A DNA stretch of 64,000 nt from Calycina herbarum (Eukaryota; Ascomycota; Leotiomycetes; Helotiales; Pezizellaceae). Location: the NCBI GenBank assembly GCA_001414485.1, contig LLEY01000187.1, forward strand, positions 50,564 to 114,563, in the 5' to 3' direction. Both the position numbers and the translations under genes were made by a program. Of this stretch, positions 36,289 through 62,809 are shown one piece after another. Positions within the stretch are counted from its first letter, which is position 1; the number at the start of each line of letters is the position of its first letter. Below the pieces are notes generated by a model. The model had not been told where the DNA came from, did not search any database, and saw only the letters and a program-made list of their open reading frames with translations.

Positions 36289-38275
36289 ATGGCTTCGCAA
36301 CTCTTTCCTCGGCGAATGGCATACATCGCTTCTAAGAGGGCTATCGCTACGGATTATGGCATGCCATTGCCTATCACAATTGTCCGCTATGGCAGAGGCT
36401 TTCGAACACTAGCTGAATTCCCCAAACTTCCTATTCCGCGAAGTGGTATTCCAAGACAAATTGCCGAGAAATACCAACCATTCTTGCTACATCCACGGGT
36501 CGAATCATCGGATTGGATTTCCGAATTGCAGTTGGAAGTTGTTGCCACAATGGTAGAAAAGTCCATGGAAGAAGACCACAGGCGGAAGAAGGTACTAGTT
36601 GTATTTGACAGCAAGTATAAACAGTAGGCTTTCTTTCCTCTTTTCTCGTGCGGTAGTAACGCTGACTTCCGCCCCAAGTTCACCTGGAAAGTATGTAGCA
36701 TACGAAGCCTGCCGGCTGCTTCATAAACTCGGCTTTGTTGTACGGGCACTCGATATCGATTCTCTGGAAGATCGTAGGTTGTTGGGGAACAACAAAAAAC
36801 AACAGCCACAGAGTTCTCTCAAACAGAGGTCATCTAAAAATGTATCTGCAGACTCTCCTCCACCTGTTCAAGAAGTTTCAGAAAACGAAACCCAAGATAC
36901 ACTTATCCCAAAACCTCTCGAAAACATGCCCCAAAGCTCACCTGACTACGAATCGCAAAACCATGCTCATCATGGGGCTACTATGCAAGAGTCTACTATT
37001 CAGCATAACCAAGAACCTCAAAATGACTCCAAAGAAATTCATGAGCACGAGGCCCAGAACTCCCGCTTAGAAGAATTATCCCCAGTGGAATCGCAGGCTC
37101 CTCCTGCTACGCAAGAAGCATCCAGCCATGAATTCGAACCCCCCTTTGCTTATATTGAAGATCCTTTCAAGAAGGAACCCAAAGCAATTACCCACTCCAT
37201 ACAAGAACACCCCGAACTCAAAGATCAGGTCCGCCCTGTGGACAGACCACCTGTTCACACCCCGCGTCCTGAAAAAGAATTCTTCGAACTTGTCATGTGG
37301 GCTGATGCACAAATTTGGTGTTTTCCAGAAAAGACAAATGATCTGCTCTCCATTTGCAACAGACACTTCAAAGAAGAAACAAGCCCAGTCCTGCAAGGCC
37401 AACCTGTACCCATCATATACTTCAACGACACCCCTAGCCCGGTATATCAAAGCCATGCTATTCGACATACCATAGGAAAGCATAGAAAACTGGTTCCGAT
37501 TCCCGCACGCACGGATTTGCAGGGAATTCGTGCTCACTTCAGCGAAAGAATGACTGAGTCTGGAATTAGGACCAGATTTGTGGATGCTGTGGAGGATCTC
37601 GCGAAATATACGCTACTGTTATGCAGGAAGAAACATGATTCAATTTTCAAGTATAAGTATAGCACCGAGAAAGCGAAGGCAAAGAAGCATGCGGCAAAAT
37701 CTGCAGCTCTGGCGGGGGTTGCTGAGGGTATGGATGGTAATGAGAAGCCACAAGATGCAAAGAAGATTGTCGAAAAGAAAGAGGCTTTCACAAGACTGCT
37801 AAATATACCGAAAGAAAAGGTCATAATAAGTCCTCGAACGAAAAACGATGCGGTTTCGAAAAGTTTTCAAAGTGAAGAGGTGTCACAAGCTAAGAAGATT
37901 GTTGAAAAGAATGAGGCTTTCGTAAGGTTGCTGGATATACCGGAGGAAAAGGTCATAAGAAGTCCTCGAAAGAAAGAAGATCCGGTGTCAAAAAGTGTGC
38001 AAACAAGTGATGAAGTTTCACAAGAAGCCAAGCTACTCCGGTTGAAAAGGCTGCTGGGGATAGAGGTCGCAAGGGACCAAGCTGCAGAAACCACGTCAGG
38101 AGAAGAAGATGAATCCTCAAAAGATATCCAAAGCACAGAGGATTCGCAAGTTACAGACGAAGTCCGGTTGCAGACTCCACCAGCAGGAGAAGCTGGTGGT
38201 GCAGGGGACTCCCAAGTCCAAGAAGACACCCATACTCCGGTGGATCCTCAAGCTACAGAGAAAACTATGCTGTGA
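36289..38275 (+). CDS. Divergent ArsH-like flavodoxin-fold protein with large insert and C-terminal repeats
   Basis: Two exons (36289-36614 and 36679-38275) give 640 residues. The conserved parts line up in order with fungal ArsH (NADPH-dependent FMN reductase) as I recall it: PFLLHPRVESSDWISELQLE, then VLVVFDSNSPGKYVAYEACR, RALDIDSLE, VMWADAQIWCFPEK, VPIIYFND and VEDLAKYTLLL. Two things are off. The FMN phosphate loop GSLRxRS of ArsH reads DSNSPGK, and the SPEQHG loop reads FPEKTND, so flavin binding is doubtful. Between the RALDIDSLE and VMWADAQ strands sits an insert of about 160 polar residues (Glu, Pro, Ser, Gln). After the fold there is a Lys/Ala-rich helix, then two tandem 44-residue repeats (37757-38023) and a third partial copy. 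Function is unknown; a scaffold role is possible. Confidence 0.6.
37757..38023 (+). repeat. 132-bp (44-residue) tandem repeats in the ArsH-like gene
   Basis: Two full units start at 37757 and 37889. Each encodes AKKIVEKxEAF, RLLxIPxEKVI, SPR and VSKS, ending EVSQ. A third shortened unit (AKLLRLKRLLGIE) follows. The differences are scattered and keep the frame, so the units appear to be under protein-level constraint. Confidence 0.75.
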
Positions 38276-41993: not shown

Positions 41994-44053
41994 TTAGCAT
42001 ACACTCCTATGAACACCTTGACTCATAGGATTCTTTCCACCTCTTCCTTGGCCCTTTTTGTTGCCATGCTCCCCAGAACTTGAATGCATCTTCTCAGCAC
42101 TTGCATGGCCCTTACTCAAGATACTCAAATCAGTCTCGTCGTTATCCTATCAAAAGCGCGTTAGCGAAATCACTCCCCGGACACGATATTTGGACGCGGG
42201 AATCGAAATGAACTCACAATCAAACTCTGCGTTGTGTCACAGATATCCGAAATCAACCTATCCAAAAGATCCAAACTCATACTCTCTCTAACCACCACTC
42301 TCAAAATCTCAAGCTTATCCTCGCTAGGCGGCAGTGGATAATTGGGAATTATGTACTGTTTCGCTCGCAATAAGTTACTGATATTCACTTGTTTGATGTG
42401 TGGGAATTCTTTTTTGAAATCATCACTGAAGCGGAATGCCACGACTGGAAGTCCAGCGTTGTAATCCGCGGATGTTTCATCCTCGGCTTCGTAGACTGGA
42501 TCCTTAGGATTGAACGAATGAACTCCCTTTTTGCGATGGATGGAGGAGACACAAGTATACCAGCCTGTTGCTTCGAGGGATTTGGAAAGGAGTCGAGCAT
42601 TTGCGAGGCAGCTTTCCATGACTGAGCGGTAGCCATTGAAACCAAGATGGACAAGGTTGTAGTATTGAGCGATGACTTGTGCTCCAGGCCGTGAGAAGTT
42701 GAGTGTGTAGGATTCTTCTGTTCCTCCAAGATAATGCTAATGATGTGTTAGCAACGGCCTACATAATAATTAAAGTCGTGTTCCTCACAAGTTCAAAGAT
42801 CAAATATTTTGGAAGATAAGACTCGTCTCTCCAAATAATCCATCCGACACCAGCATAAACGAGACCGAACTTGTGACCAGACACATTGATAGACTTCACA
42901 CGAGGAAGTTGAAAATCCCATTTCGGTCCTCCAGCTTGAGCATTAGTAAAAGGAGCAACAAAAGCACCAGAAGCACCATCAACATGGATAGGAATATCAA
43001 CCCCAGTCTCCTTCTCGTAAGCATCCAAGATATTGCTTATCTCTTCAACTGGCTCGTAATGACCGGTATAAGTACTTCCAAGAATTACGAAAACACCGAT
43101 AGTGTTCTCATCGATGTTCTTTTTCACCAGCTCCGGATCGAGCCTGAATTCGCTTTTCTCCGATACCGGTAGTATACGAGCTTCGACCTCAAAGTAGCGA
43201 GCGAACTTTTCAAGTGCTACTTGCGCATTTGCTCCCATGATGATATTGGGTTTGGATTTATCTTTTCCTTCGGCGTCACGTTTTTCTTGCCAGCGACGTT
43301 TCATTGCTAGGCCACCGAGATGAATGGCTTCAGACGAACCAGTTGTTGCTGAGCCGATTGCTTTCTCTCCCTTCTGGACACCCCAAAGGTGGGCAAGGAT
43401 GCTGATGCATCGTGCGTGTATTCTGATTGACTTGTTTAGTTTTGATCCTGTAGATGTCAAAGGACTTTGGAGCCTTACTGCATCATTGCTGGATATTCAT
43501 CTGCATCGCTCTATGTTCGAGATTAATAAAGTTCTTTGGGTAAGTTATGATTATTATCTACCATACCATGTTTTTAGCGATGTTTTCAAACATCAGTTTC
43601 TGAGCATTTTCTTCCATGTACGTGCCACTACGGTAAAATCAGCGTTTGCACTTCTTTTTCGTTTATCCAAGGGAAATGGTGAGTATATCTTACACGAAAC
43701 TGCAGAAAGGTTAGCTGATACTCAAAAAAGACCCATTGATGATCACAAACCTAGCCAAATTTAAGTTTGGAATTCCATCAAGATCCAATTCATCTTTTAT
43801 CATTTGATGGACGGCATCGGCGGGTGCTCCTTCTTCGCCTATCTTGAATTTCGGGATCTCCTGTTTACTAGCAAATCGGGTAGAATAGGGGGTCACTGAA
43901 GAAGTTCCTCCTTTGGTGTGTTTATGGTGTCGACCCGCTTCTTTCATGTGCATGTGAGAAAGGTTTTCGATAAGTTCATCGGGGTCAACCTAGAGATGTC
44001 AGCTATTGGCCGAGATTGTAGGATAGGGAACTTACGTGTCGGGCGAGAGACAT
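41994..44053 (-). CDS. Glutamate decarboxylase, with a 6-nt microexon
   Basis: Eight exons give 553 residues: 44053-44036, 43989-43751, 43699-43694, 43627-43567, 43510-43479, 43422-42789, 42736-42218 and 42146-41994. All phases close. The third exon is only six bases (TTTCGT), needed to make the conserved LNLASFVGTYMEENAQKLM. It is flanked by CAG and GTAAGA. PLP-enzyme features follow: PAMMQIHARCISILAHLWG, SEAIHLGGLAMKRRW, HVDGASGAFVAPF and VSGHKFGLVYAGVGW with the PLP Lys. The last exon adds the polar tail ending GVHRSVC. The enzyme makes GABA from glutamate in the cytosol, feeding the GABA shunt and acid or oxidative stress tolerance. It lies tail to tail with the decayed gene. Confidence 0.94.
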
Positions 44054-44844
44054 GTTGGGTGGTACTGTTTGGGGAAGATAGGTAAACTGAAGGGATAATT
44101 TGGAGAGTTGATAGCAATATTTTATTGTTTGTTTTGTACAGGAATGTAAGCTGTATTCGCTGGTGTCTTACTACGTATGACGACACCTGAAATTCACCAG
44201 TAGCCGTTTTTCCCGTGGGACTCCACCCAACCACGAAATCTAGAACTTCTACATGTTTTATCATTGGCTATCAATATTTCCTATCGATCCCAAGTGGAGT
44301 TTCCATGTTTTATTCTGGGAAGCCAAGACGTAATGGTCCCTAGGGCTGCAGGCTGGAAAAGCTTGATTTGCGTCTCCACAGTCGCCCGGGTTTTATCCGT
44401 GGTTTCCGTCATCGTTCAGTAAGAAAAGTAAGCATTACTCTACGATCACCCATTTCTCATTAGTCGAGAAGATTTCGAATACTTATTTCTCATTCTCCTA
44501 AAGCTTCTCAAACAATACTGTTGCTTAACCTACACAACTATACACAATCATGGTCAAAGTAGGCGTTTGCAGAGTAATGTCTTTCATCCGGTACTGCCTT
44601 CCAATAAAACCACGATTGCAAATATAAGCTAAATGTAGTGTTAGAAATTAGTAGCTTTTAAGGAATTGGCAGAATTTCTTTTCAGATTTTCAAGGTACTA
44701 GCTCAAGAAGGGCTTTTGTGTGGTTGGCACGGGCCGGTGTTTGATTTGGCCTACTTTCGCACTCCATCACTATAAAAAGGGGCTAGCAAACTTGATTCCT
44801 GTGTTCAAGTTCTTCCGAGGTAAGTTTTTCTCTTCCAGTTCTCG
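44054..44844. other. Spacer with a fold-back element
   Basis: 5' flank of glutamate decarboxylase and 3' flank of the MFS gene. It contains the small repeat at 44465-44510. No gene is seen. Confidence 0.4.
44465..44510. repeat. Fold-back element, diverged copy
   Basis: CGAGAAGATTT at the left and CATTCTCCTAAAGCTTCTC at the right match the arms of the copies at 9544-9601 and 45915-45972. CATTCTCCTAAA is identical to the ferric reductase copy. The inverted pairing is weaker here. Confidence 0.45.
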
Positions 44845-47101
44845 CTAAACTCTGGCAATTCCTTCCCCCTCCATTTGCCCTACCTGTTTCTCACCCCCTT
44901 TTTCCATCATCTCCCGTCGCTCCTCAGCTTTAGCGTTTTCCCTCTGAATTGAAACATCTTTGATGTTCAGCCACTTCATTCCGAAAGCGATTGGTATGGA
45001 AATGCAAATAGTCGCAAGCAGGAATATCATGGTATGAGAGATGGCTACGGTGTAAGCATCTCTAAGTCTTGCGACCAATGCAATGTCTTTGGTTAGAGAG
45101 GTTAATCCCGTAGCACCGGCATCAATCACTGCTTGCGAAGATATTTCCCCGGAGGTGGCTTTGGGGATAGAATCACGCAGACCGTTGACGAGTAAGGCAT
45201 TGGCAATTGGTATGCCAAGCGCACTGAAAAGAGAGGAAATTAGCAAGAAAATTTTGTATCTTGGAACGGAGCCAGGGTACTTACCCTCCCAATTGACCGA
45301 AGAAACTTGCTATGCCGTTGGCTAGGAAGATATCGTTATCACTGGTTGACAAAGAATTAGTACTAAAAAGCGTCTTCGAAGTCAAACCTTATGACTTACG
45401 TTTCCATTACAGCTTGTATCGCAATATGTGGTACGTTGACACCTAGTCCGAGTCCAAGACCTGTCAGAACCAAGTACGTAGCCCACTTGGCGGTTGAGGT
45501 GTCCGTCTTGAGAGTTATCAAAAGGCTTGAGCCAATAACGCAGAGGACCTGAGCGAAAAGAATGACAGGCATCTAGGATATTTGTTAATGACTGACGAAA
45601 AAAGCCGAGAAAGAAATGAATTCATTTCATCGCGAAAACTTACGTAGTGTCCAGTTTTGGTGGTGATGCCTCCACCAGCTAGCAAGCCAATCATTTGTGG
45701 TATTGCTAGAGCCATGTAGCTTACTGCACTCCTGATAGGAGACTGTGCGAGTGCAGCTTGAAAATAAAATGGAATGTAATAGATTGTCTAGTTTTCAAAG
45801 TTAGAGTTGAATATGGCACGGAGTCATGAGTAAGAGTCCTAAGCTTTGCTCTGAGTACACTCTATCCCGCCATTACCTCGACCTCGGGAGTTTCGTAACA
45901 AGTTAGAACATTATGCGAGAACGTTTAGAAGAATGGAAATTTAGAGTTTTTCATTGTTCTAAACTTTCTCGGACAATATTCCTAGACTAGTGCGTATAAT
46001 GAAAGTAAAGGAGGTGTACTCAGAGCAAAGCCCATGTTTCTTACATACCACATAAGATGCCATGTTATCCCAGAACAAATAAATCGAGCCCCATAGGACT
46101 GTTCTATCCTTCAAATAACGCAGAGGAATTGTCGCATTTTCTCCAGCTTTCCATTGCCATAGTCCGAAAATAATAAATAGCAGTCCGAAACCAACGAGTA
46201 GGCCAATCGGTTTAGCAGAGTTCCATGGTGTAGTCACACCCCCTTCTTGTAGTGCCAAAAACAGGCAGGATACAGAAGCAATGATAAGAGCAACTCCTGG
46301 AAAATCTAGCTTGATTAATTTTGTACGGAATGGAATTTCGCGTGTCGATTTATCGACTCCTTTGAGATCAAGGAATGCAACAACTAGGAGGAACACAACG
46401 CCTCCAATGGGAAGGTTTCTGTTAGAACAGTTAGCAGCTGTTACAGGTACCTATTTTTGATTTCAAGCGGGGACTTACATCCAAAAGCACCATCTCCAGG
46501 TGGCTCTCTGTGTCAGAACTCCACCAATGAGAGGACCAACACTTGAAAATAAACCAAATATGCTGACGACAATACCCAGAAATAATGGTCGCATTTCGAG
46601 AGTACAAACGTAAGTAAGAATACCAAAAGCACCCTGGAGGAGGGCGCCCGCGCCGAGTCCGGTGACCGCTCTACCCGCAATGAAAGCTGCTGAGGAGGGA
46701 GCCAGAGCAGTAACCAGAGAACCAACTAACAAAGTTAGTTTCTGAAGTCAAAAGCAACTATCGGAGTAAAAAGTACCTTCAAATATTGCGATAGCTGCCA
46801 GATAGACGTATTTTGGATTGAAGTATTTGTAAAAGTTGGCACTGATTGGCGTTGTTGAAGTCAGTGTCATGAGGTAAGCTGCTCCATACCACCCAACATC
46901 ATTCAAAGTATGAAACTCTGCTGTTATGGTGGGAGTTGCGACTGAAATAATTGTGGTATCCAGTGACATCAGAGTTGTACCAAGTAATAATGAACCCATA
47001 ATGATGACTAGTTTGAGACCGGTGGGATACACGGTTTCTGATCCCTCTATCATGGCAGAAGTCACGGAAGAGGGGTTTTCTTTGTCATTTTTACTTTCCA
47101 T
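44845..47101 (-). CDS. MFS exporter, DHA14 (14-TM) drug/toxin efflux type
   Basis: Seven exons give 564 residues: 47101-46777, 46725-46479, 46418-46049, 45787-45644, 45572-45400, 45341-45285 and 45223-44845. The first helix is GLKLVIIMGSLLLGTTLMSL, followed by the DHA signature LDTTIISVATPTIT and DVGWYGAAYLMT. Motif A/C regions include AGRAVTGLGAGALLQG and SSVGPLIGGVLT. Fourteen hydrophobic segments fit the plasma-membrane proton antiporters that export fungal metabolites and fungicides. It is the gene nearest the diterpene cyclases on their left side and could export their product, but that is inference. Intron 3 (262 bp) carries an inverted-repeat element. Confidence 0.88.
45843..46031. mobile_element. 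189-bp fold-back/MITE-like insertion in an MFS intron
   Basis: GCTTTGCTCTGAGTACAC at 45843-45860 and its exact reverse complement at 46014-46031 are 18-bp ends. Nested inside, 45915-45972 is a second inverted repeat (GAGAACGTTTAGAAGAATG against CATTGTTCTAAACTTTCTC, 17 of 19 matching), related to elements at 9544 and 44465. The right end lies 17 bases from the splice donor. No target duplication is clear. Confidence 0.6.
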
Positions 47102-47935
47102 ATTGAGAACACTCCGATGGTAGTAGAAGTGGATGGACGTTAAAGAAGTTGAATTTAAGGACTTATTCAAAAGTACGACTGATGAGAGACTTTCTTTTTG
47201 GAGGGACAGCCAAAACCCGGTGGACTTGGGGTAGATGGAGCTTCAACCGGGGTTCAACAAAACACCAACATCACTCTAACAACAAGTACCTTCCGAAATT
47301 CCTACTCGGTCGTCCTGAGCGAGATGTTTGACTAGGTTGTGTTGGTTGTGTTGGTTGTGTTGGTGTCAGGTTCTGCAATCGGAAGTTGGTCCGTGGACTA
47401 CCCAAAAAACGAGGATCAACTAGGCTGAGTAAATGTTTGTGCCCACTTACTACCCTGTAAGAGGCACGAGGGTGACATTGTAGTGGAATAAGTGCCATTG
47501 CATGAATATAGTGGGCGAGTGCATATGCAGGTCATTTAATTTGCGGAAGCGAAAGCGACCAAGAATTGATGACAGGGGGGTTAAGCAAACATTTCTGTAG
47601 GTCAATTCTTGAAACAGTGGTTAGTTCCCCAAGTCAATGTTGCTTACCGGGAATTTGAGAAACAGAGGCTACACTGACCAACGTCTCCACTTCTAACAGG
47701 TGCCATCCGGCTTCAACCCTGGTAAGGCATTCTACGGCCCCTTTGAAATGTGCAAATATTGATCATAAGCGACTGCGAATGATGTGAGATAGGTGATTAT
47801 TCTGCAAGTGCTACAGGGAGGTTGATCAGCACCAAGCGAGAAGTTGGAGTTACGGTCATGAGAAGTTTCCCCTTTGCTCACCTGTTCGTGTCGTCTTCAT
47901 AAAGAAAGAGTAATTAATGTTGTATCCAAATTACA
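47102..47935. other. Divergent region between the MFS gene and the class I cyclase
   Basis: It holds GGTTGTGTT repeated three times at 47335-47361. It may contain promoters for both genes. No other feature is seen. Confidence 0.4.
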
Positions 47936-50272
47936 GTGGAGAACGTCGCATCTATGGCGAATATCAGCACTGTTGATCTGGGAGCTTTGAAACTCATTCG
48001 TGAACTTGACGCCACTTTGACTGTCGCCAACGGCGAGCCTGGTAACGAGAAGGAGATTCTTGATGTGGAATTATTGGAAGTAAGTGAACAAGAATTAGTC
48101 CTGAACTCGAAAAATTACTGATTTGACGAATGGTAGATAATAAGCATCCTGCACACAGCATTTGGGGAGGTCAACGTTGGCTGCCATTTGATCCCAAACC
48201 TTGCTCAACTGTTAGTTGGAGCAGAAAAACAGGATAACAAACTTGGGGCCGGTAATTTCTTTCCATTTGAAACCAATTCCTCAGCTCTTTTCCAATACTA
48301 AGGTTTTGCTAGAATTTGAAATTTCAATCCATCGTCTTTATGTTTTGTCACTGGAACGGAAATCAGAAAGACAGCAAGGCGATGATGTACGTTACCATGT
48401 CCGTAAAGAGAGTCTAATTATAAATCTCATATCTAATCGAAAGAATAGGGTGATGGGTTCGATTCCAGGTCTCAAAAGCTGTGGAAGCTTTTGGTAAATG
48501 CGTCGCCAAGCATCGAGAGCTCAGAAATTTTGGATGTAGCACTGTCACTTTGCGACTCGTGGTGGAGAGGAAAGGTGATCTATGAGAATGTGAGTCCAGG
48601 ATACCGATTCTCGATGACAATATCTAATTCAGCAAAGAGTTTACCAGAAGGATTTTCTTATATGACCTTTTCAGAATCGATTATCCGCCTAGATCAACGA
48701 CTTAGTCAAGATGAAACTTTGCCCGCAACAAAAGAATACATCCGGCGTGCGCCTATAGTTCTGATTCAGATGGTGGCCAAACTCATCTCATCTCAGAACG
48801 AAGATGGATCTTGGGGAATTGATGGTGATGTGGAGACGACCACGTTCGCTATACTTGCGATCATTTCAATCTCGAGCTTCTCGTATACGCACGTACTTGC
48901 GGATGAAATCCTGGAGGCTTTGGCGAAAGCTGGTGATGCTTTGACGTTGTTGAAAGATGGTATATCAAGCCCCAATGAGAATGTCAACCGCACCACAGTC
49001 GGTGGCATCTCCGAGGCATATTTACTTACGGCTCTGAAACGTCTTCGGAAAGATGGAACTGGTCTCTTTCCGAATGACAGAGATTCTGCTTTGGCAACAA
49101 AAGTTTCCCGATTTGCAAAATGGTTTTCAAACACAGACTATCTCAACGGAGAACCCAGTTTCATGATCAAAGTCTCGATCCTTGAGGCCTCTTTTTACAA
49201 ACCGATACTTCAAGATTTGAGAACAAAGGTTTTTCCTCAAACCAACACGAAGGAAGGCGATAAATACATGGAATATATCCCAATCATGTGGGTTATACCC
49301 TCTACCTGTCGCAAGCTTTTTTTGTCGCCTGAATATATTCTGGACATGCTGGTACTATCAATGTGGATCTTTCTCGTGGATGAATACATGGAATCCAACG
49401 TAATCCACTTTTCAGCCGACGAGTTTGCACAATTCAGAAATGCAATGGGCGAGCTTTCTGCCTCTGACCGAGAAGAGATTGATTTTGGAGTAAAACAAAC
49501 AACGGAAAGTCCAGCAAAGACGAAAGATCTTTCTCCTCGAAGCACTAGGCTGGAAGGCGCCATTTCGGTCTTCACACAATTCATGGACGATGTTCTCGGC
49601 TATTCCAATGTATGCAATGCATCACTATCCGATAGATTTGAGCTTCGACTAGAAACCGTGAAGTATCTGCTCTACCATATCACTCAATCGGAGGACAATA
49701 TCCGTTTTAGCAAACAACAGCATGCACCAGGCAGAAATACCAAGTTTCTCACACCAAGAATGCCATACCATACATGGGTTCATACCATTGGAGCCGGCCA
49801 CGTCTCTGGGCCGTTCGCATTTGCGTTTCTGACGTGTCTATTAGGTGGTTCAGTTCGCAAGGGATGCGACTGCTTTGGCACCATCACACAAAAGCTCATT
49901 GCCTTCAAGATGAACTCGCACATTGGATCCTTTTGTAGAATTTACAACGACTATGGGTCCGTCAGTCGAGACAGGGAAGAGTTCAACATCAACAGCATAA
50001 ACTTTCCAGAATTCTTCTCTGCGAATGATCAATTGGAAAGGGATGACGAAACATGGCAGCACGAAGAGAAGAAAGCGAAAGAGGCGCTCCTTGAAGCTGG
50101 AGTTTTTGAGAGAAAATGCGCAATTGAAACTTCGAAAATTTTATATAAAGCCCTTGGAGCTGACGGAGAGGAGGGTGAAAGAATATCGGATTCCATTCGA
50201 GTATACATGGGAGGCTGTGAACAATTTTCCGACATGTATCTGACAAGAGATGTTACCAATAGGGTCAAGTAA
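47936..50272 (+). CDS. Class I diterpene synthase (ent-kaurene-synthase-like half of a fungal CPS/KS)
   Basis: The main exon, 48449-50272, is certain and adds 608 residues. A preceding exon ending at 48386 (VLLEFEISIHRLYVLSLERK) joins in phase. The first exons (47936-48078 and from 48137) are less sure. A beta-like domain has SLWKLL-type LWKLLVNAS, then SSQNEDGSWGIDG. The alpha domain has IPIMWVIP and, after LDMLVLSMWIFL, the metal motif VDEYMES (DExxE form of DDxxD). The second metal motif is RIYNDYGSVSRDREEFN, followed by INFPEFFS. The end has QFSDMYLTRDV, all as in the KS half of gibberellin-type CPS/KS. No DxDD is present. An upstream piece, VNVGCHLIPNLAQLL, resembles the gamma domain, as if the class II centre had been deleted. 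It should ionise a copalyl-type diphosphate. The product is unknown. Confidence 0.8.
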
Positions 50273-50758
50273 CCTCCAGTAACATGCATGGAACTCGTGC
50301 GGCGAATTCGGATCATTACATCACGCTCATTTAGGAATTTTATTTTATTTTTGTAGAATTAGGGAAATAAGCTGAACGGGACCAATGCTTAAGCCATCGT
50401 GTCTCGGGTGTTTAAGCAGATACGACGATATTCCTTGGCAGGCTTGGCATTAGAATATCATTCATTAGCCACGCTATTAATTGATAAAGTGAAGATATCA
50501 GCAACATAGGGATTGAGAAGTCTAAACACAAAATTGTAGATCAATAGAAGTGGTGGCTGTCGAGTAACTAGATTTTGAATTCTAAGCCTTGTGAATAGCT
50601 TCATAGATGTGGCTGTCATGTGGCTGTGGAAGAAGGACCAGGGGGAGATTGTCCTGATAACACAAAAAGTCTGGATATACTTCAGTATTTTCCCTCCGCC
50701 ACTGACGTTATCTCATTGAAGTTCTATTACAGATTTCATTCCTACTTTGCTGCAATTG
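50273..50758. other. Convergent 3' spacer
   Basis: AT-rich, between the class I cyclase and the SAT4-type gene. Nothing else is seen. Confidence 0.4.
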
Positions 50759-52074
50759 CTACACTGACCTCTCTATGAAAACATCCTTGCGCACAATTAT
50801 GGAATTCTTCGTCCCCAAGGTATTGGATCCCCAGGCACCAGGATGTTCCACATCCATATAATTTGTGGATACGTATGCTCTCCCGGGTATGTCAAGAGGA
50901 GCAAGGTTAACATTGTCAAGACCTCTGAATTGACCGGATGAATCAGCTCGAATGCCACTCCCTCGCTTGGTATTTACGGTGCCTTTTGTACTTGATCTTG
51001 TCGTTCTCGAAAGCCGCGAGATAAATTTCGATTTGCTGACGTGGGTGACCATGACTGGGAAGAAAGGTAGGCATACGTTTATGACACCAAACATCGGCTC
51101 CAACCCAGTGATAAATCCAACAATCGCGGCTTGTCTTGTGTAGTTGTCCAATTTATAGTACTGGGATATGAGAAGTCTGGCCAGTGTCATTGCGCAAATA
51201 CTGAAAAGGCAGTTAGAGAAGCCCATGAACTCATTCAATTCGAATTTCTTACAGTATACCCATTCCAAACACAATCGCAAGTCCAACTTTTTTCTTCTTG
51301 GCCATCTGAAGTCTCCAGAGCATGGGCATTGGGAGAACCACAATGATGAAATCATTGATCAGACTCGTTGTTGCTGTATAGAGTTGGAAGGATGTCAGAC
51401 TCCCACAATGACCACCTGGTGTAACTGGGGCAAAGCTGTAGGATATCGGTCTGCATATGAGGAAAACCGAAAATATGACAGATACCAAGATGGCCACATT
51501 AATGACCAACACAATCCAGCAAATCAGTTGGAAAGGTCGCACGACAAAAATCCGGATATAAAGGAGCAACATCGAAGCACGCACAGCTACCGATGCAGCG
51601 TTCCACACAATGTCAATAGCAACAAAAATCTGAAACTGTTAGAGGTATTTGAAGCGGGAAATTATGAAAGGTTTGAACTAACATTTGCTGCAAAGAATCC
51701 TTCATCTAACGTAAAAGAAGCGATATCCTCTCCCCAGCCATGGGAATAAACTGTCCAGATGTTAAAGGGGTTCTTATTTCCCGCAATACAGATGAATAAA
51801 AGAGTGATTTGACTGACCTCCAAACATTATAACAACTAAGCCCAAGTCCAAAACCTGGCAACGATTTATGATGAGTTTATAGGTCAAACAAGAGGGATTG
51901 GGTACTCACCAATCCAAACAAGCAAGCATAATCGCTCAAATCCAAAGAAGCTTTGTGCAGTTTACGAGAATATACACGAACTGCAAAAGAAGAGATTGCG
52001 AGAATGGCAACAATAACGATGACGATGAAAAAAGCACGACCTTCGGCATTTTCTTTGGGGATTATCCACATCAT
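50759..52074 (-). CDS. SAT4/rhodopsin-domain (PTH11-like) seven-helix membrane protein
   Basis: Exons are 52074-51910, 51854-51818, one from 51750 to about 51690, one from about 51630 to about 51251, and one from about 51215 to 50759. Start MMWIIPKENAEGR is chosen because the first helix (FFIVIVIVAILAISSFAVRV) follows at the usual distance. Family marks are DLSDYACLFGLVLDLGLVV, HGWGEDI, SMLLLYIRIF, CRPISYSFAPVTPGGHC, ATTSLINDFIIVVLPMPMLW and the last helix FGVINVCLPFFP. The tail is polar. Proteins of this kind often lie in secondary-metabolite clusters or act as receptors. Its job here is unknown. It lies between the class I cyclase and the P450, divergent from the latter. Confidence 0.75.
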
Positions 52075-52746
52075 GCGGTTCTTTGAGGGGGGAGTCGCCG
52101 TAGATTTCGATAAAATAAAACAAATACTCAGGAAAAGAATCTGAGAAGTCAAGAGACAAATTACCAGTGAAGGAACTCTCGTTATAGACACACTAGACAG
52201 ATGCAATGTTCCCTTGTTGGGAATTGCATATTCTGAGCTCCACGTGAATGACAAGCAGGGATTACCTAAGTGTTAAAGACCGTACCGCTATATCATACTG
52301 AAGAACTTGAAAATCTGCCCTGCAATACTCGCTAGATTCGTTGGGTATTTGTAGGGTGTAGGGCAATGTAGGCAACTGCGTTGAAGTGAAAGCTACCTAC
52401 CCGAAGGGATACTGTTGGTCCACGCCCAGAGAGATCTTACGAGTTGGAAGTGGATACAGTGGACACTCTACCCATAATATGCAAGCAAAGCCCTGCATAT
52501 TTTGTGATTTGCTTTCGACGTCCATGCATATCTTTGGCATATTGTCCGGGTTGGTAAAGAAGATCCTTCATGTTGGTCGCCCCACCCACACGCATTGCGA
52601 GTTATAAGCAAGGTTGGCTCCAGCCACCAAAGAAGGTGTTGCCTTTCCATACTCCCCCGATACGATATGAAAATCAGTCTTCTCATGAAATCGCCCAAAA
52701 TCACAAGCTCGACTCTCACTGTTTCTTTGTCTAACAAATTTCCACC
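52075..52746. other. Divergent promoter region of the SAT4-type and P450 genes
   Basis: No repeat or known operator is recognised. The frame upstream of 52074 stays open to 52254 but lacks family features. Confidence 0.4.
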
Positions 52747-54451
52747 ATGGGTCTCTTAAAACATGTTTTTGAATTTTTGGACCAACACCAGATCGCCGTT
52801 GCAATCTGTGTCTTGCTTTCGGTTAGTTAAACCCGGATTTGAAGTACTCTTACCTCCAATATCTCTGACTTGAAAGTAGTATCCAACTATCAATGCAGTG
52901 TATAATGTGTTTTTTCATCCTCTCTCGAAATTCCCTGGTCCGAAACTATGGGCTGCTTCCAGACTACCGTTCATATACTGTCTCATTACCGGTCAACTAG
53001 TCCAACGCGAAAAAGAATTTCACGAGAAATATGGAGATTTTTTCCGCCTTGCTCCCGACGAGGTCTCATTCTCAAGTGAAGAGGCATGGAATGACATCTA
53101 TAACTTTCGTAAAGGCCATAAACGAGCATTGAGAGACAAGGCTTATTACATGAGTGAGAAACATCTTTGAAAATATTTTGTCGACAAACTAACAGCTCAG
53201 CACCTGATGCAAAGGTCGACAATATCATAACAACTACCGATTTTCGTTTCCACGCTCGCATTCGTGGAATTCTCAGTAATTCATTTACCGAAGCCTCTCT
53301 TCGAAGCCAGTACCCGCTCATTCTCTCAAAAGCCGACTTACTCATATCACAACTTCAACTTCTTACGAATAAACCTCAGAACATGGGAAAGGGGGGTCGT
53401 ATTAACATGACGGAATGGCTCAACTTTTTTACCATGGACACAATTAGTGACCTTGCATTTGGGGAATCCTTTGCTTGCTTGGAAAGAGGAGAGTATCATG
53501 AATGGGTTCGCACCCTATTCAGTTTTCTAAAATATATGTCACTCGGTGCTGCACCCCGATATTACCCGATGTTGGAATTCCTGTTGATGAAACTGATGCC
53601 AAAGAGCGTAATGGAGGGCCAGAGAAAGCATATGCAGTACGCGTACGAGAAGATCAACCGTCGCATAGATCTCAAGAGCGAGCGACCGGATTTCATGACC
53701 CCTTTTATGAGGAACAACGTCAATTTCGAAAGTATCTCCCGGGACGAAATTCTAGCGACATTCAACTTCATTATCATCGGTGGTTCCGAGACGTCAGCAA
53801 CTGCTTTGACTGGCATATTCAACCATTTGTCTAAGAATGAGAACAAGAAAACCCTCCAAAGGTTATGTGCCGACATTCGCGCTAAATTCATGACACAACA
53901 AGAAATTACTTTCGACTCAATTCAAACCGTTCCGTACCTCGAAGCAGTTATCAACGAAGGGCTACGAGTCTGCAATCCTATCCCCGGAGGACTTCCCCGG
54001 GTTGTACCAGAGGGTGGAGACACTTACTGTGGAATTTTCCTGCCTGGTGGTGTAAGTTTCACCTTGAGGTGGTTCCAATCAAGTACTGACCTCCCTTTAG
54101 ACTCGCCTAGCCGCCCGGACCTTCGCAACAAATCGGTCTCCAAAGCTCTTCAGCAATCCAGACAAATTTGTGCCTGAAAGGTGGTTACCAGAAGGTCAGC
54201 GTTCAGCAACTTATTCAAAAGATAGCCTTTCGGCTAGCAGACCTTTCAGCACAGGTTTTCATAGTTGTCTTGGGCGACCTCTAGCCATGCTTGAGATGCG
54301 ACTTATCATCATCAAGGTTCTCCTCGCGTTTGATTTGTCGGTGGATTCGGAGGACACTGTTGAATTTGATGACTTTCCAGTGATCATGTTGATTCAAAAG
54401 CAACCTATGGTACTCCGACTCAAGCCAAGAACTTTGCAAGGGGTAGTTTAG
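52747..54451 (+). CDS. Cytochrome P450 monooxygenase of the diterpene locus
   Basis: Four exons (52747-52821, 52880-53153, 53201-54051 and 54101-54451) give 516 residues with closed phases. An N-terminal helix anchors it in the ER (IAVAICVLLS), followed by the proline hinge HPLSKFPGPKLW. The oxygen-binding I helix reads IIIGGSETSATALTG, ExxR is EGLR, and PERWLPEGQR is the PERF-like motif. The heme loop is FSTGFHSCLGRPLAMLEMRL with its ligand Cys. The layout resembles fungal P450s of terpenoid and trichothecene pathways (isotrichodermin-hydroxylase type). It probably oxidises the diterpene made by the flanking cyclases; the substrate is inferred from position only. Confidence 0.9.
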
Positions 54452-55955
54452 AGATGGCGAGCAATAGCTTGTTGAATAACTGGAAATAACATCGTATTTG
54501 CCTTCGCCATAGCCATCCTATCAATATCACGATCATTTTGAGCGTGGAGTTTTAGAAGCTATAGATGTTATTACTCTACGACCTTTAATATCTAATTACC
54601 ATGTGGTTTATTGTGAAATTCATTGAACAAAATCCCCACTCCCAACCTTGTCGCTACCCAACTTTTGTCCCTATCACCAGGTCAACTTCCCCAATGTCAT
54701 ACGTCGAAGCGGATGGCTCAGATCCGTTCCAAGGAGCGCAGCATTTTGACTTTACAATGTAACCAACGGGTTGTTGTGATCTTCGAAGGATCATATACAG
54801 AGTCGTAGTTGTTGGGAATTATGCAATGTCTTCAGTTGAGTTGCAACTACTACCCTATTTCTTGCCAAAACTTGAATCACGGACGTGTTGATGTTGGTAG
54901 CCTGGCGTGGTGACCAAACGCCCACGAATCTGTATGCACGGGATGCAGACGTTGGTGGGCGAGTACATATTTAAGTCGTACCCATTTCGAATGTTGGTTG
55001 GTACTATACATACATGTACATGAGGGGATGACTGGGAAGTGTAGAGATACGATGTATGACTGCAGCTGTTGGTACTGTACATGCAAGGGTATGCTACAGA
55101 AAAATGTATGCGGGATAACTTCAACTACGGTACCGGTACTGGAGTTTCGTCAGCCAACAATATTGCATGGAATACACAGCCCTACATAATAACCGGAAGC
55201 AGACGCCCATCTCTTCTGTAGGAGATGTTGGAAGGCACAGTAAATTTGCCACGCATCTTTCTACTATAGGCCTTTACCGCAGACTTCATTTATTTGAAAG
55301 CGATCTACCTTCGTAATTAGAGATAGAGACGTAACGAAGAACGCCTTTATCAACACCATTTATTTTCCCGCCCCTGCATATGGCCGGAAGAAGTGTCTGC
55401 CTTGCCGTTATCTTTGTTTATTTGGTGTCGCTGGTTGCAATATGCACTGCAACAGTTGGGTACCATTTACAGGAGGTGAGTAAAACACTCAAAGTTTCGT
55501 TATTAGAATGACGAGCCAATTGCCTGGGTAACATCTTGGTTCCAACATGTTTTGGCACGAGACTGTTATTGGATCGTCCAAAAAGCGGCCACAAAAAACT
55601 CGGTCTTCAAAATCTCACCCATCCGCCTCAGCTTGGTGATAAGCGATGTTTTATTGCCAACATCGTCAGTTTGGCTGTTTCCAAGATAGGTAGCAACACC
55701 GGAGGCGCAGTAAATAATTGTTGCTTTGTTATTTTCGTGAGCTTGCCCAAGTTGTTGTGGGATTTTGGGATTCGTTGGAAAGACAGTAATGGAAGTGACT
55801 TGAATTCAAGGTCATTGAATGTAAACTAGCCAAGAGCCCGCTTGAAAATACGACATTGCGAAATTTTCTATTCCACTGAAATTTTATGATTTTCCACCTA
55901 AAATTCCCGCCTGTAGAACACCAAAATAACCCGAAACACCGTGGTAGCCGAAGAG
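54452..55955. other. Intergenic 5' flank of the class II cyclase
   Basis: 1.5 kb without a supported gene. Short GTACAT/ATGTAC palindromes lie near 55008-55085. A 97-residue plus-strand frame at 55536-55829 has no family features. Confidence 0.4.
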
Positions 55956-58853
55956 ATGACCAATTCAAAGTTAGAAGATCGAGTGGAGAAATTACTTGGA
56001 GGAATGTTAAACCACTACGACAGCTCCTATGGCTTTGGCTCTATGAGCTGCAGTGTCTACGACACAGCTTGGGTTGCAAGCATCACAAAAACAGTCTCCA
56101 GCCGTGAACAATGGCTTTTCCCCTCCTCATACACTTACATCTTGAATTCTCAACTCTCCAATGGCGGCTGGCCAGCCCATCCCAATTCAAACGACGCTGA
56201 CGAAGTCGATGGCATATTATCGACAATGGCAGCAATATTTTGCTTAAAACAGCATCTTCGTAATCCCCTTCAACTACGACATGAGGGGGATGGGTTGTCG
56301 ACGAGAATCTCAGCAGGGTCAGCTCGTCTCGTTGTATTGTTGAATGAATGGGATGTCGGGAAGTGTAACTCTGTCGGTTATGAGGTACTTGTTCCATCAC
56401 TTCTTGGACTTCTCGAGGATGAAGGTCTTTTTATCGATTTCCCGGATAAGGAATATCTTTTAGAAATTCGGGACAAAAAGCTCGCCAAGGTCCGACCTGA
56501 AATTCTTTACGAGGGCAAACACTTTGCATTACTGCACTCACTTGAGGCCTTCCACAGATGGACTGAATTTGATGTCGGCAGAATCTCTCACCACAAGATT
56601 GGAGGTAGTATAATGGCGTCACCATCAGCAACTGCGTCGTACATGATGCGAAGCTCGGCATGGGATGACGAAGCGGAGGCCTATCTTCGCTTGGTACTCT
56701 CAAATGGAGATGGGAAGAATTCAGGAGGGGTACCTAGCGCATACCCATCTACAAATTTCGAACTCATATGGGTAAGTACAAAACATCTCGTATCAACAAT
56801 TAGTGCTAATAGTTAGTAGGTCACTGCAACCTTGATAGAAGCGGATTTGGTGTCCCGGAACCCGGCTTTTGGCTACAACGAAACACTCCTCAGTATATTA
56901 GAGGCATCCAGGCAAAGTTCCGGAGGACTCGTCGGCTTCGGTACGCTTTGTTCTTTTTAGAAAACCAAAACCCTATCATCATGGGCACCGGGGATCGAAC
57001 CAGACTTAGATGATAGTTCTAAAACATCAATAATTTTCAGTGCATTGGGCAGACCTGGCATTACAGACTCCATTGTGGCTCGATTCAATTCGACAGAGTG
57101 TCTGAAAACCTACCAAGCAGAACGAAACCCCAGTCTGAGCGCAAACTGCAACGCGCTTTTAGCATTGTTATTGGACTCATCCACACACCCGGCAAAACAA
57201 GCGACGATAGAAACAGTAACAAAATTCATTTGCCGGAAGTCGAAGCTCAGCAGTTCACTTGAGGACAAATGGGTATGATGATGTCTAAAATTTTGAAGCA
57301 TTTCATCCCAGCTAATTTGATACTAGAATATTTCACCCTTTTACTCGGCTATGCTGATGTCCCAAGCCCTCACAGAATACCTCCGGGTTTTCGAAAAAGG
57401 AGCCATTGCACGCAGACTGGATTCAACAGTTGAACAAAGTGTAGTGGCGGCATTGTTTCATTGTTTGATTCAAACTCTGACTTCCCAAACTTTGAGTGGC
57501 ACTTGGGGAACCAAGGGGCCGAGGGAAGAGACAGCATATGCCGTATTGACATTGGCAAGATTGCTTGTACTACCACATGCGCAATTCATCCGTCCCCAAA
57601 TACTCTCAGCGATTGATCGAGGGCGCACCTTCCTTTTGAACTCAAAAGCCAGCACCCCCGAGCACTTATGGATCGAGAAAGTCACTTACGGCTCAGCAAA
57701 TCTCGCAGAAGCGTACATAGTAGCTGCTTTGTACATACCAATAGATGGGCCTTCACTTGGGAAACCAGTGGTTGAGATTTGCCCCTTGAATAACGAGGAT
57801 TTAGCCAAATTCGGCATGCTGATCTGTCAAGGACCGTTGTCAAAAAGTCCACGGTGGATCGTTCTTGCATCCTGGATTGAATCGCGTCTCTATGTCTTAA
57901 GCCAGCAGTGGTCTCCCGAGGAGAAATCGCACTTCGAAACCATCGCCTTCTGGTGGTTTTTTGCAAACAACAAAAGAGAGTCTGCATGCTCATGGAACTT
58001 CGTCTATGATATGATTAGCCTGTCGACGCGAATCCACAAAGTGGCGATATTGACACAAGAAAGTATTGCTCGTCAGAATGAGAGCAAAATACAAGGGCTT
58101 GTTGAACAAATAAACAAAACTGTCCTACAATTTGACGTGCTGGACTCGCCATTTGATACTGGAAATAATATCGAGAAGCCGGCCCTGAACGGTGTTGACA
58201 AGATTCTCAAGAAGCACCCCACAACCAATGGCCATACGACAAGCGGAAATCTAGCAAATGGAATCGATAACAAAGCATCGAAAACACTCTCTTCCTTCTT
58301 CGATTATTTCCGTGACCGCGTCCACCTATCAAGCGCCAGTGAGAGCGACATCAACCCATTGAACTCCGAAGCAAAGAAATTTTTAGATTCACAGATCACG
58401 CACCTGGAAACCCAAAAAAGGTACCCTAACAGTATCCTAAATAATGGCCGTTCAGACTCTCTATTCGTCTTCCCAGATTCCTCTGCCCTACTGGCAGTTC
58501 CTGCTGGATTTACTGGGATCCCCTTACTATTTTCTCTCGCACTTTCCCTCCAAAACAAAAAACATTCTAAAAACCCATCTCGCTTCAAGGATATCGTGTT
58601 GAAGGATATTCGGGAACGCGCGGAAACGTGTTTCCTCCTCAAGCAAAGATATATTGGGTCAGCGCGGGGAAAAGATGTCGACTTGTTTTTGTCGTACCAA
58701 AAGAGCTTGTTGTTAGAAGCGCTCCAACAAATCAATAGATTCGAAGAGGGGGATGATATCGTGAAGAACGTAATGGTCATTTTGGACTATACGGAGATAG
58801 GGTTAGTGGAATCTGCTATACCACAGGTTGGAGATGGGCAGCAGAATGTTTGA
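55956..58853 (+). CDS. Class II diterpene cyclase (copalyl-diphosphate-synthase-like) with dead class I domain
   Basis: Four exons (55956-56771, 56820-56940, 56986-57272 and 57327-58853) give 916 residues. The gamma domain starts SCSVYDTAWVA, then WLFPSSYTYILNSQLSNGGW and VDGILSTMAA. The beta domain has the class II acid motif in APGIEPDLDDSSKT (DLDD), then ERNPSLSANCNALLALLL, DKWNISPFYS, LSGTWGTKGPREETAYAVL and LWIEKVTYGSANLAEAY, all CPS/KS features. The alpha domain is present in length but lost both class I motifs: the DExxD place reads FVYDMISLSTRIHKVAILTQ, and no NDYGS is found. It should cyclise GGPP to a copalyl-type diphosphate and stop there. The exon 2-3 join at 56940/56986 fits the family but ends the intron in GGG, not AG; without splicing, an in-frame TAG (56958-56960) interrupts the gene. 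Confidence 0.8.
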
Positions 58854-61229: not shown

Positions 61230-62809
61230 TTAAGTGCCATCGGATACGGAGAAGCTCGCTGACCCGTCAACGATGATAGCCCAAGTTAGTCTGTCTTGGG
61301 AAGTTTCATATCCGTCTGGCTTCGTTGCTCCTGGGATGTTGGAGCAATCGGCTGCTGACAAAACTTGTTTGTACCACATGGCACCTACAAAATGATTTGC
61401 GGTTCCGGGTGGCAACGCCATCTGAGAGATATCTCTGGCTCCTTGCTTGAAGGCGATGATAAAAGAGTGGATGAGTGGCTGCCAGCCCTTGTGGTTCCCT
61501 TTTGTGCTTGACATGTAAAGAGAAGGTGCGAAATCCGTATTCTGCTCGGGCCAAATGTTTCCAATATAATGACTCTGAGTTGAGAAAGTCAGCACAAACG
61601 ATGCGGAGACAGGAAGTTTAATTATTGACTGACCTCGGGTCCGTCGTTCCATGTGATTATTTGGATAAAGTCGGGTCCATTCGCCATTGCAAGTGTTTCT
61701 TTCATACGTTGAACCAAGTTAAGGCCCCCTACAAAATGTGAGTATGACCGGGATAAACGCGAGAATCCAACACATACCTTCGCGATATACATTGGTCTCA
61801 TATGCAGCTTTGTATTGGATTGAGCTCATTGGCATCATGTACCTAAATAATGTCAGTTTTGGCACAAAAGCGAACTTCTTAATTGTAAGATCTTACGTTT
61901 TGCCATGGACTAGTGTGCCTGGGTTTCCATCTATTCCCTCGATAACTTGTTTGTCCCACTAAAGAGACATTAATTAGCGAAACGGAAAGTTAAACTGTCT
62001 CGAAGTCCTTACCCTAGTGTCACCAGGCCAAAAGCCACCATAACCAGCTCTATAAGGCCAAGCACTCTCCCATGCAGTGACTCCATCGAAGATAGGTCTC
62101 CAGTATTTCCACCATTCTGGATGAGACGTGTTAAATCTATGTCAATCTCAGTCAATAAGATATCACAACCCAACAACGAGGAAACCAACCCCAAAGTATG
62201 ATCTAAATCTGGAACGAAATATACACCAGTACTGGAGAGAGTTTCGCGCCAACCAATGAAAGAATCATTGTTCATCCCACCATCTGAGAAAGTGGTCACG
62301 AATGGTTTCCCATTTGGACCTAGGTAATATGAGGAGCGGGTGATGAAGTCTCTGAAAGTATCACCGTAGTCGAAGGCGTTGACGTTGCTGCCATCTGCGT
62401 GTTTGTGGTCACCGGCAGCCCAGAGATCCATGCTGATGAATAGCCTGAAGTTGCTTCCTTGTGCTTTGAGAGCATCAGCATGATCGAATAGGAAAACTAA
62501 GGCGCCGAATACGTGGCCTGCTTGAGGAAAGCCACTAGATGTGGTTAGCGAGGCTGGAGATTGATCCTAGGGGTGAGGTAAACTTACATGTTGAGTGAGA
62601 AAGCATCTAATCCCATAGCAATCGCATTGTCGATATCCTGTTCTGCATGCTCTTTTGTCACCGATCCCACCTATATCATATGTTAACAGATGTTGGCTTT
62701 ACCGAAGGAAGGGTCTTACCATGTAATGAGCAAAGACAGCCCTTACATCGGCTAGACGAATTGCAAGCAGACTCGTAACCGCCCAAACTAAGTAGAATAA
62801 AGAACGCAT
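61230..62809 (-). CDS. GH71 alpha-1,3-glucanase (mutanase), catalytic part
   Basis: Eight exons give 402 residues up to the TAA at 61230: 62809-62720, 62670-62588, 62534-62190, 62136-62013, 61958-61897, 61842-61778, 61728-61634 and 61574-61230. A signal peptide (YLVWAVTSLLAIRLADVRA) leads into VFAHYMVGSVTKEHAEQDID, the family opening. FISMDLWAAGDH, YFVPDLDHTLG, the WESAWPYRAGYGGFWPGDT stretch, MMPMSSIQYK, ITWNDGPESHYIGNIWPEQ and GAMWYK follow in the usual order. The Asp in WNDGPE and those of DLDH are the likely acidic catalytic region. It degrades alpha-1,3-glucan in fungal walls or biofilms outside the cell. The catalytic part alone may work if the stop is real. Confidence 0.88.

Follow-up and report, generated by a model that had tools for sequence, protein, structure and literature searches.

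Class II diterpene cyclases protonate their substrates through an acid motif, and class I synthases ionise a diphosphate by means of metal ions. Fungal labdane-type cyclases are presented as fused enzymes in the accessible text of two reviews (PMC11795633, PMC11469919), and the accessible part of a survey of 47 fungal sequences describes bifunctional signatures as usual, with the DXDD search failing in 3 sequences and DEXXE not found in 11 (PMC4617483). The generalization that ascomycete cyclases are single bifunctional proteins, made in an earlier note on the DNA described here, holds for most of them, but it omits the known fungal exceptions PvCPS, PfCPS and LabdA, in which a class II cyclase is fused to a prenyltransferase (accessible text of PMC10744899). 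No fungal split into a separate copalyl diphosphate synthase (CPS) and kaurene synthase (KS) was found in the open-access literature searched, subscription papers lying outside that coverage. Furthermore, a mining study retained a protein, according to the part of it available, only if it was long and had both motifs (PMC10512213), a filter that would throw out both halves of a split pair. Here we describe a locus of the helotialean fungus Calycina herbarum, within a 64,000-nucleotide stretch of contig LLEY01000187.1 (the window; contig C98 of an assembly of 68.8 Mb in 379 contigs), where two genes, A and B, carry complementary motif sets and are probably a fungal CPS/KS divided between two proteins that act in sequence. 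Their features are as follows.

47954..50272, plus strand: gene A, predicted class I-type (beta-alpha) diterpene synthase of 696 amino acids (aa), assigned from the spliced model, the match in Hymenoscyphus fraxineus and the alpha-region tree
47954-48079, 48137-48251, 48313-48386, 48449-48589 and 48638-50272, plus strand: exons of gene A
49379..49393, plus strand: DEYME of gene A, a class I metal motif
49946..49978, plus strand: NDYGSVSRDRE of gene A, a class I metal motif of NSE type
55956..58853, plus strand: gene B, encoding a predicted class II (gamma-beta) cyclase of 910 aa whose alpha domain is inert
55956-56771, 56820-56940, 57004-57272 and 57327-58853, plus strand: exons of gene B
56941..57003, plus strand: intron 2 of B as modelled, the nearest downstream AG being taken as acceptor
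57003..57014, plus strand: codons for DLDD of gene B, a class II acid motif

The spliced model of gene A joins five exons across four GT..AG introns, and its product is 61% identical (427/698) to the H. fraxineus protein HYFRA_00010094 (690 aa) across its length. A first model of 651 aa, which skipped one exon and was superseded, served as the query for the relatives search and for the Pfam scan of spliced A. The last exon is open for 545 codons, with a chance of about 4e-14 in random sequence that has the base composition of the window. The earlier note had placed the gene at 47936-50272 and described A as lacking the DxDD motif through reciprocal loss; it was right that A keeps DEYME and NDYGSVSRDRE and has no DxDD, the motif check finding none, but the start is the ATG at 47954, and what is missing is a whole segment and not a motif within a full-length protein. 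In a profile-profile alignment A begins just ahead of the DxDD position, gaps over DxDD and has nothing earlier, which indicates a short class I protein of beta-alpha architecture, without the gamma domain, the first part of the beta domain and the DxDD stretch. No convincing gamma-beta exon was found upstream in 42001-47953, where 66 gamma-beta queries gave 37 matches at E<=1 with a best E of 0.011, whereas the B locus was matched by 66/66. A weak pile at 46990-47100 (19 of the 37 matches) was rejected as a gamma exon of A, being antisense to the start of a major facilitator superfamily (MFS) transporter gene. The DExxE and NSE-type motifs of A lie in an alpha fold, and its best fold match is an enzyme that uses copalyl diphosphate. 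The alpha domain also matches bacterial Sat1646 and LrdC by fold, at a sequence identity of 11-12%, and A is 26% identical to ent-kaurene synthases.

Gene B presents the opposite set of motifs, as the earlier note had claimed. Residues 4-542 (gamma-beta) match the class II domain of the Penicillium CPS 8v0f at E 4.4e-121, with DLDD in the gamma-beta fold, and a motif check for the class I signatures (D/E-E-x-x-E, NDxGSxxRD) found neither. The C-terminal third is still predicted to be helical, as judged from a structure prediction on the H. fraxineus orthologue HYFRA_00010091, to which B is 63% identical. Nothing in this region points to an active prenyltransferase domain: the 8v0f match stops at residue 542 and no DDxxD/DExxE or ND.GS motif was found. 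The last exon of B is open for 509 codons (chance about 3e-13 under the same random model), and B is 30-36% identical to the bifunctional sequences compared. It could be that some of the 11 DEXXE-negative sequences of the published survey are B-like. Pfam gave nothing at E<=0.001 for spliced A or B, PF19086 on A being sub-threshold (E 0.071), and the last-exon frame of B matched no family at E<=0.1; both families are thus poorly covered.

Both A and B are homologous to the gamma-beta-alpha family, a profile comparison of A1 with A2 giving E 3e-193 with bifunctional rows in both alignments, and neither combines DxDD with class I motifs in one protein. Four other loci of the genome (on contigs C246, C159, C347 and C44) each bring DxDD, DExxE and NDxGS together in one gene region, so the split pair exists alongside fused enzymes. 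A further diterpene synthase locus, L028 (G000:C344:106800-111000), has DxDD, DEYME and NDLGS with in-frame stops and is probably a decayed gene. Seven more matches to the class I terpene synthase family PF19086 lie on contigs C359, C361, C323, C353, C156, C101 and C7.

The complementary motifs recur in other fungi, as does the linkage of the two genes, which the earlier note had proposed to look for in related genomes. The A search returned 57 proteins, 47 of which (P0002-P0048) were treated as A-type; P0049-P0057 (bifunctional or distant) were left out of that set, and P0132-P0143 (bacterial, plant) were excluded from all sets. D-E-x-x-E is present in 46/47 A-type relatives and NDxGSxxRD in 45/47, one of the two exceptions being a fragment. 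From the 87 proteins of the B search, 15 were B-type by sequence, with DLDD in 10/10 that reach the position and class I motifs in 0/15; three of the 15 (P0065, P0066, P0068) stop short of the alpha domain, according to gene predictions made by others. A third gene, between A and B in the window, entered the comparison.

52747..54451, plus strand: cytochrome P450 (P450) gene, 516 aa, PF00067; exons 52747-52821, 52880-53153, 53201-54051 and 54101-54451

The P450 comparison covered the best 120 of 755 matches, 71 of them at least 52% identical to the window P450 and 49 less similar, and the statements on P450 linkage that follow concern these. Sharing of a contig was counted by exact equality of contig size. 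A-type and B-type proteins share a contig three times, and with the 71 more similar P450s a contig is shared by A seven times and by B seven times (47 A, 15 B); no A or B shares one with the 49 less similar P450s, nor with the 67 other cyclases of the search. In H. fraxineus (Helotiales, Leotiomycetes), the source of the closest named relatives for these genes, B (tag 10091), the P450 (10092, 86% identical to that of the window) and A (10094) lie on the same contig and mirror the window, tag 10093 being unseen. The A and B tags of Seirophora villosa are adjacent, as are the A and P450 tags of Caloplaca ligustica; B is two tags from the P450 in Dirinaria and three in Heterodermia, and all three families are present on contig 16835. 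As judged from such tags and contigs, the A, B and P450 families recur together in other ascomycetes: all three share contigs within Leotiomycetes and within Lecanoromycetes, and in Dothideomycetes B does so with the P450. The class II and class I motifs thus lie in two genes with recurring linkage, which may act in series as the split pair of plants does, and the complementary motif sets, together with relatives beside the same kind of P450 in distant fungi, make a two-step diterpene route likely.

We infer as follows what A and B use and make, how the intermediate passes between them and what the P450 does. B would protonate geranylgeranyl diphosphate (GGPP) through DLDD and cyclise it to a copalyl-type diphosphate, which A would then ionise by means of metal ions bound at its DEYME and NSE-type motifs, completing the diterpene; the P450 beside B would likely oxidise the product. 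GGPP would be supplied from elsewhere, since none of the six polyprenyl synthase matches in the genome lies on the contig of the window. More tentatively, ascomycetes may have independently rebuilt the modular system of plants, in the form of an old and conserved pair: a class II enzyme with an alpha domain that is inert, or absent as in the proteins of Sporormia and Periconia, and a gamma-less class I enzyme. The copalyl-type diphosphate would pass from one to the other either free or docked, and could be exchanged with the cell's bifunctional synthases.

Several observations weigh against a split CPS/KS acting in sequence. Contig sharing was judged from equal contig size and tags, not from the DNA itself, and two other cyclases share a contig with listed P450s (P0087 with P0146, P0100 with P0183). 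Most of the listed A-type relatives are pieces beginning after the DxDD position, having been called from the last exon and being therefore uninformative on the missing segment, so that its loss is tested by the four sequences in which it was checked (window A, P0003, P0038 and P0039). Foldseek alone gave no match for the A model at E<=0.001. In Sporormia and Periconia, B and the P450 share a contig and no A-type match bears either name, the B-type proteins being P0066 (Sporormia, 576 aa) and P0068 (Periconia, 518 aa). Finally, the stretch 56941-57040 at intron 2 of B has no AG where relatives end the intron, a place at which 4/4 intact paralogues of the same genome do have one. The nearest in-frame AG directly precedes DLDD, and its use keeps the frame and the motif but drops six residues before DLDD, where 10/10 B-type relatives reaching the position have PGIEPDLDD. 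Because of this non-AG acceptor beside DLDD, the class II site of B may be altered, or B weakened, in this assembly. A first B model, in which 57040 served as acceptor, did not keep the frame and was discarded.

With respect to the pairs of contig-sharing proteins just given, P0087 (Fulgogasparrea decipioides, tag 001901) has DVDD and no class I motifs and falls outside the B-type set, and the adjoining P450 gene, P0146 (tag 001902), encodes a protein 69% identical to the window P450.

The altered acceptor and the shortened product could mean that the pair is decaying, B being impaired at intron 2 and the locus heading for loss in this species, as the in-frame stops of the paralogue at C344 and the identity of A and B to H. 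fraxineus, only 61-63% against 86% for the P450, would also suggest. This is rather unlikely: the last exons of A and B are both open for more than 500 codons, all motif residues of A are intact, the in-frame AG preserves the frame and DLDD of B, and a base error in the assembly would explain the acceptor equally well.

The Sporormia and Periconia contigs would in turn be expected if A were an independent class I synthase acting on GGPP or another prenyl diphosphate, with the diphosphate made by B dephosphorylated and oxidised without A, so that one cluster would hold no single linear route. There is precedent for such a fate, in that the accessible text of PMC10744899 describes the dephosphorylation of fungal CPS-type products, that of LabdA with LabdB. 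We regard this as rather improbable, because A and B pair on a shared contig three times, A retains some of the beta domain typical of CPS/KS proteins, its best fold match uses copalyl diphosphate, and no phosphatase gene was seen beside B in those of the frames that were scanned. That A and B are an assembly or annotation artefact, such as the halves of one bifunctional gene, might be read into their complementary motifs and is effectively refuted by their overlap in the second half of the beta domain at 21% identity, by the two genes between them and by the same arrangement in the independent H. fraxineus assembly.

If A and B are a split CPS/KS, the next question is how the pair arose. Trees, quick and unrooted, were built from 26 matches of the A search plus window A, 12/15 B-type proteins plus window B, and 35/67 other cyclases; L028 was omitted because of its in-frame stops. 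The alpha-region tree places 24 A-type rows, window A included, in one clade with support 100, and P0050, P0054 and P0055, which were also tried, among bifunctional rows. In the gamma-beta tree, which holds 11 B-type relatives and window B (P0129 being too short), the 12 B-type rows form one clade with support 97, joined at support 100 by its nearest row, the bifunctional Dirinaria protein P0069. In a tree of the shared beta half, the A clade (support 98) and the B clade (support 48) stand apart. Approximately unbiased (AU) tests did not reject the joining of A with B (p 0.165), of A with P0069 in the alpha region (0.237), or of A, B and P0069 in the beta half (0.33). One duplication of a bifunctional ancestor followed by reciprocal loss is thus possible, given trees that neither support nor reject it; any such duplication must be old, as A and B share only 21% identity over 408 columns.

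The gene order in the window is A, a seven-transmembrane (7-TM) gene, the P450 and B, with a transporter gene on the other side of A.

44845..47242, minus strand: MFS/TRI12-type transporter gene adjoining A, possible cluster member, PF07690 and PF06609; limits approximate
50759..52272, minus strand: fungal rhodopsin-type (PTH11-like) 7-TM gene between A and the P450, PF20684 at E 4.9e-29 in the frame 51249-51638; unspliced, limits approximate

Beyond the transporter lies a pyridoxal-dependent (glutamate-type) decarboxylase gene (42170-44070, minus strand) that is not obviously part of the cluster, and downstream of B a glycosyl hydrolase family 71 gene (61230-62566, minus strand) likely marks the cluster edge. 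A 558-aa open frame at 36599-38275 has no Pfam match at E<=0.001.

With a split conserved in Leotiomycetes and Lecanoromycetes, one can test why fused enzymes have remained so, and whether class I enzymes of fungi have lost gamma as those of plants did. Diterpene clusters that have been overlooked could also be sought by a simple rule, namely a B-type cyclase with this P450 family, A being optional. Compared with known systems, A and B share with the fungal bifunctional CPS/KS of the gibberellin, aphidicolane and phyllocladane routes (P0075 and P0083 being named at source aphidicolan-16beta-ol synthase and phyllocladan-16-alpha-ol synthase) the gamma-beta-alpha family and the DxDD, DExxE and NDxGS motifs. 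There a single protein of about 930-1010 aa holds both sites, whereas A and B have one site each and A lacks gamma. With PvCPS, PfCPS and LabdA, B has the class II gamma-beta part in common, its orthologue being 40% identical to 9q3i over 491 residues; the C-terminal domain of those proteins makes GGPP, according to the accessible part of PMC10744899, but no such sequence match or motif was found in B. Bacterial class II cyclases paired with class I synthases (Sat1646, LrdC) are similarly two proteins with a copalyl diphosphate intermediate, although the bacterial class I proteins consist of alpha only and A has part of beta. A comparable arrangement is that of plants, where, in the accessible text of PMC11469919 and PMC11795633, the class II enzyme CPS and the class I enzyme KS are two proteins, the class II protein has an inert alpha domain, and class I lineages can lose gamma. 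Because A and B are members of the fungal family by sequence and resemble the plant enzymes in arrangement alone, the likeness would be convergent.

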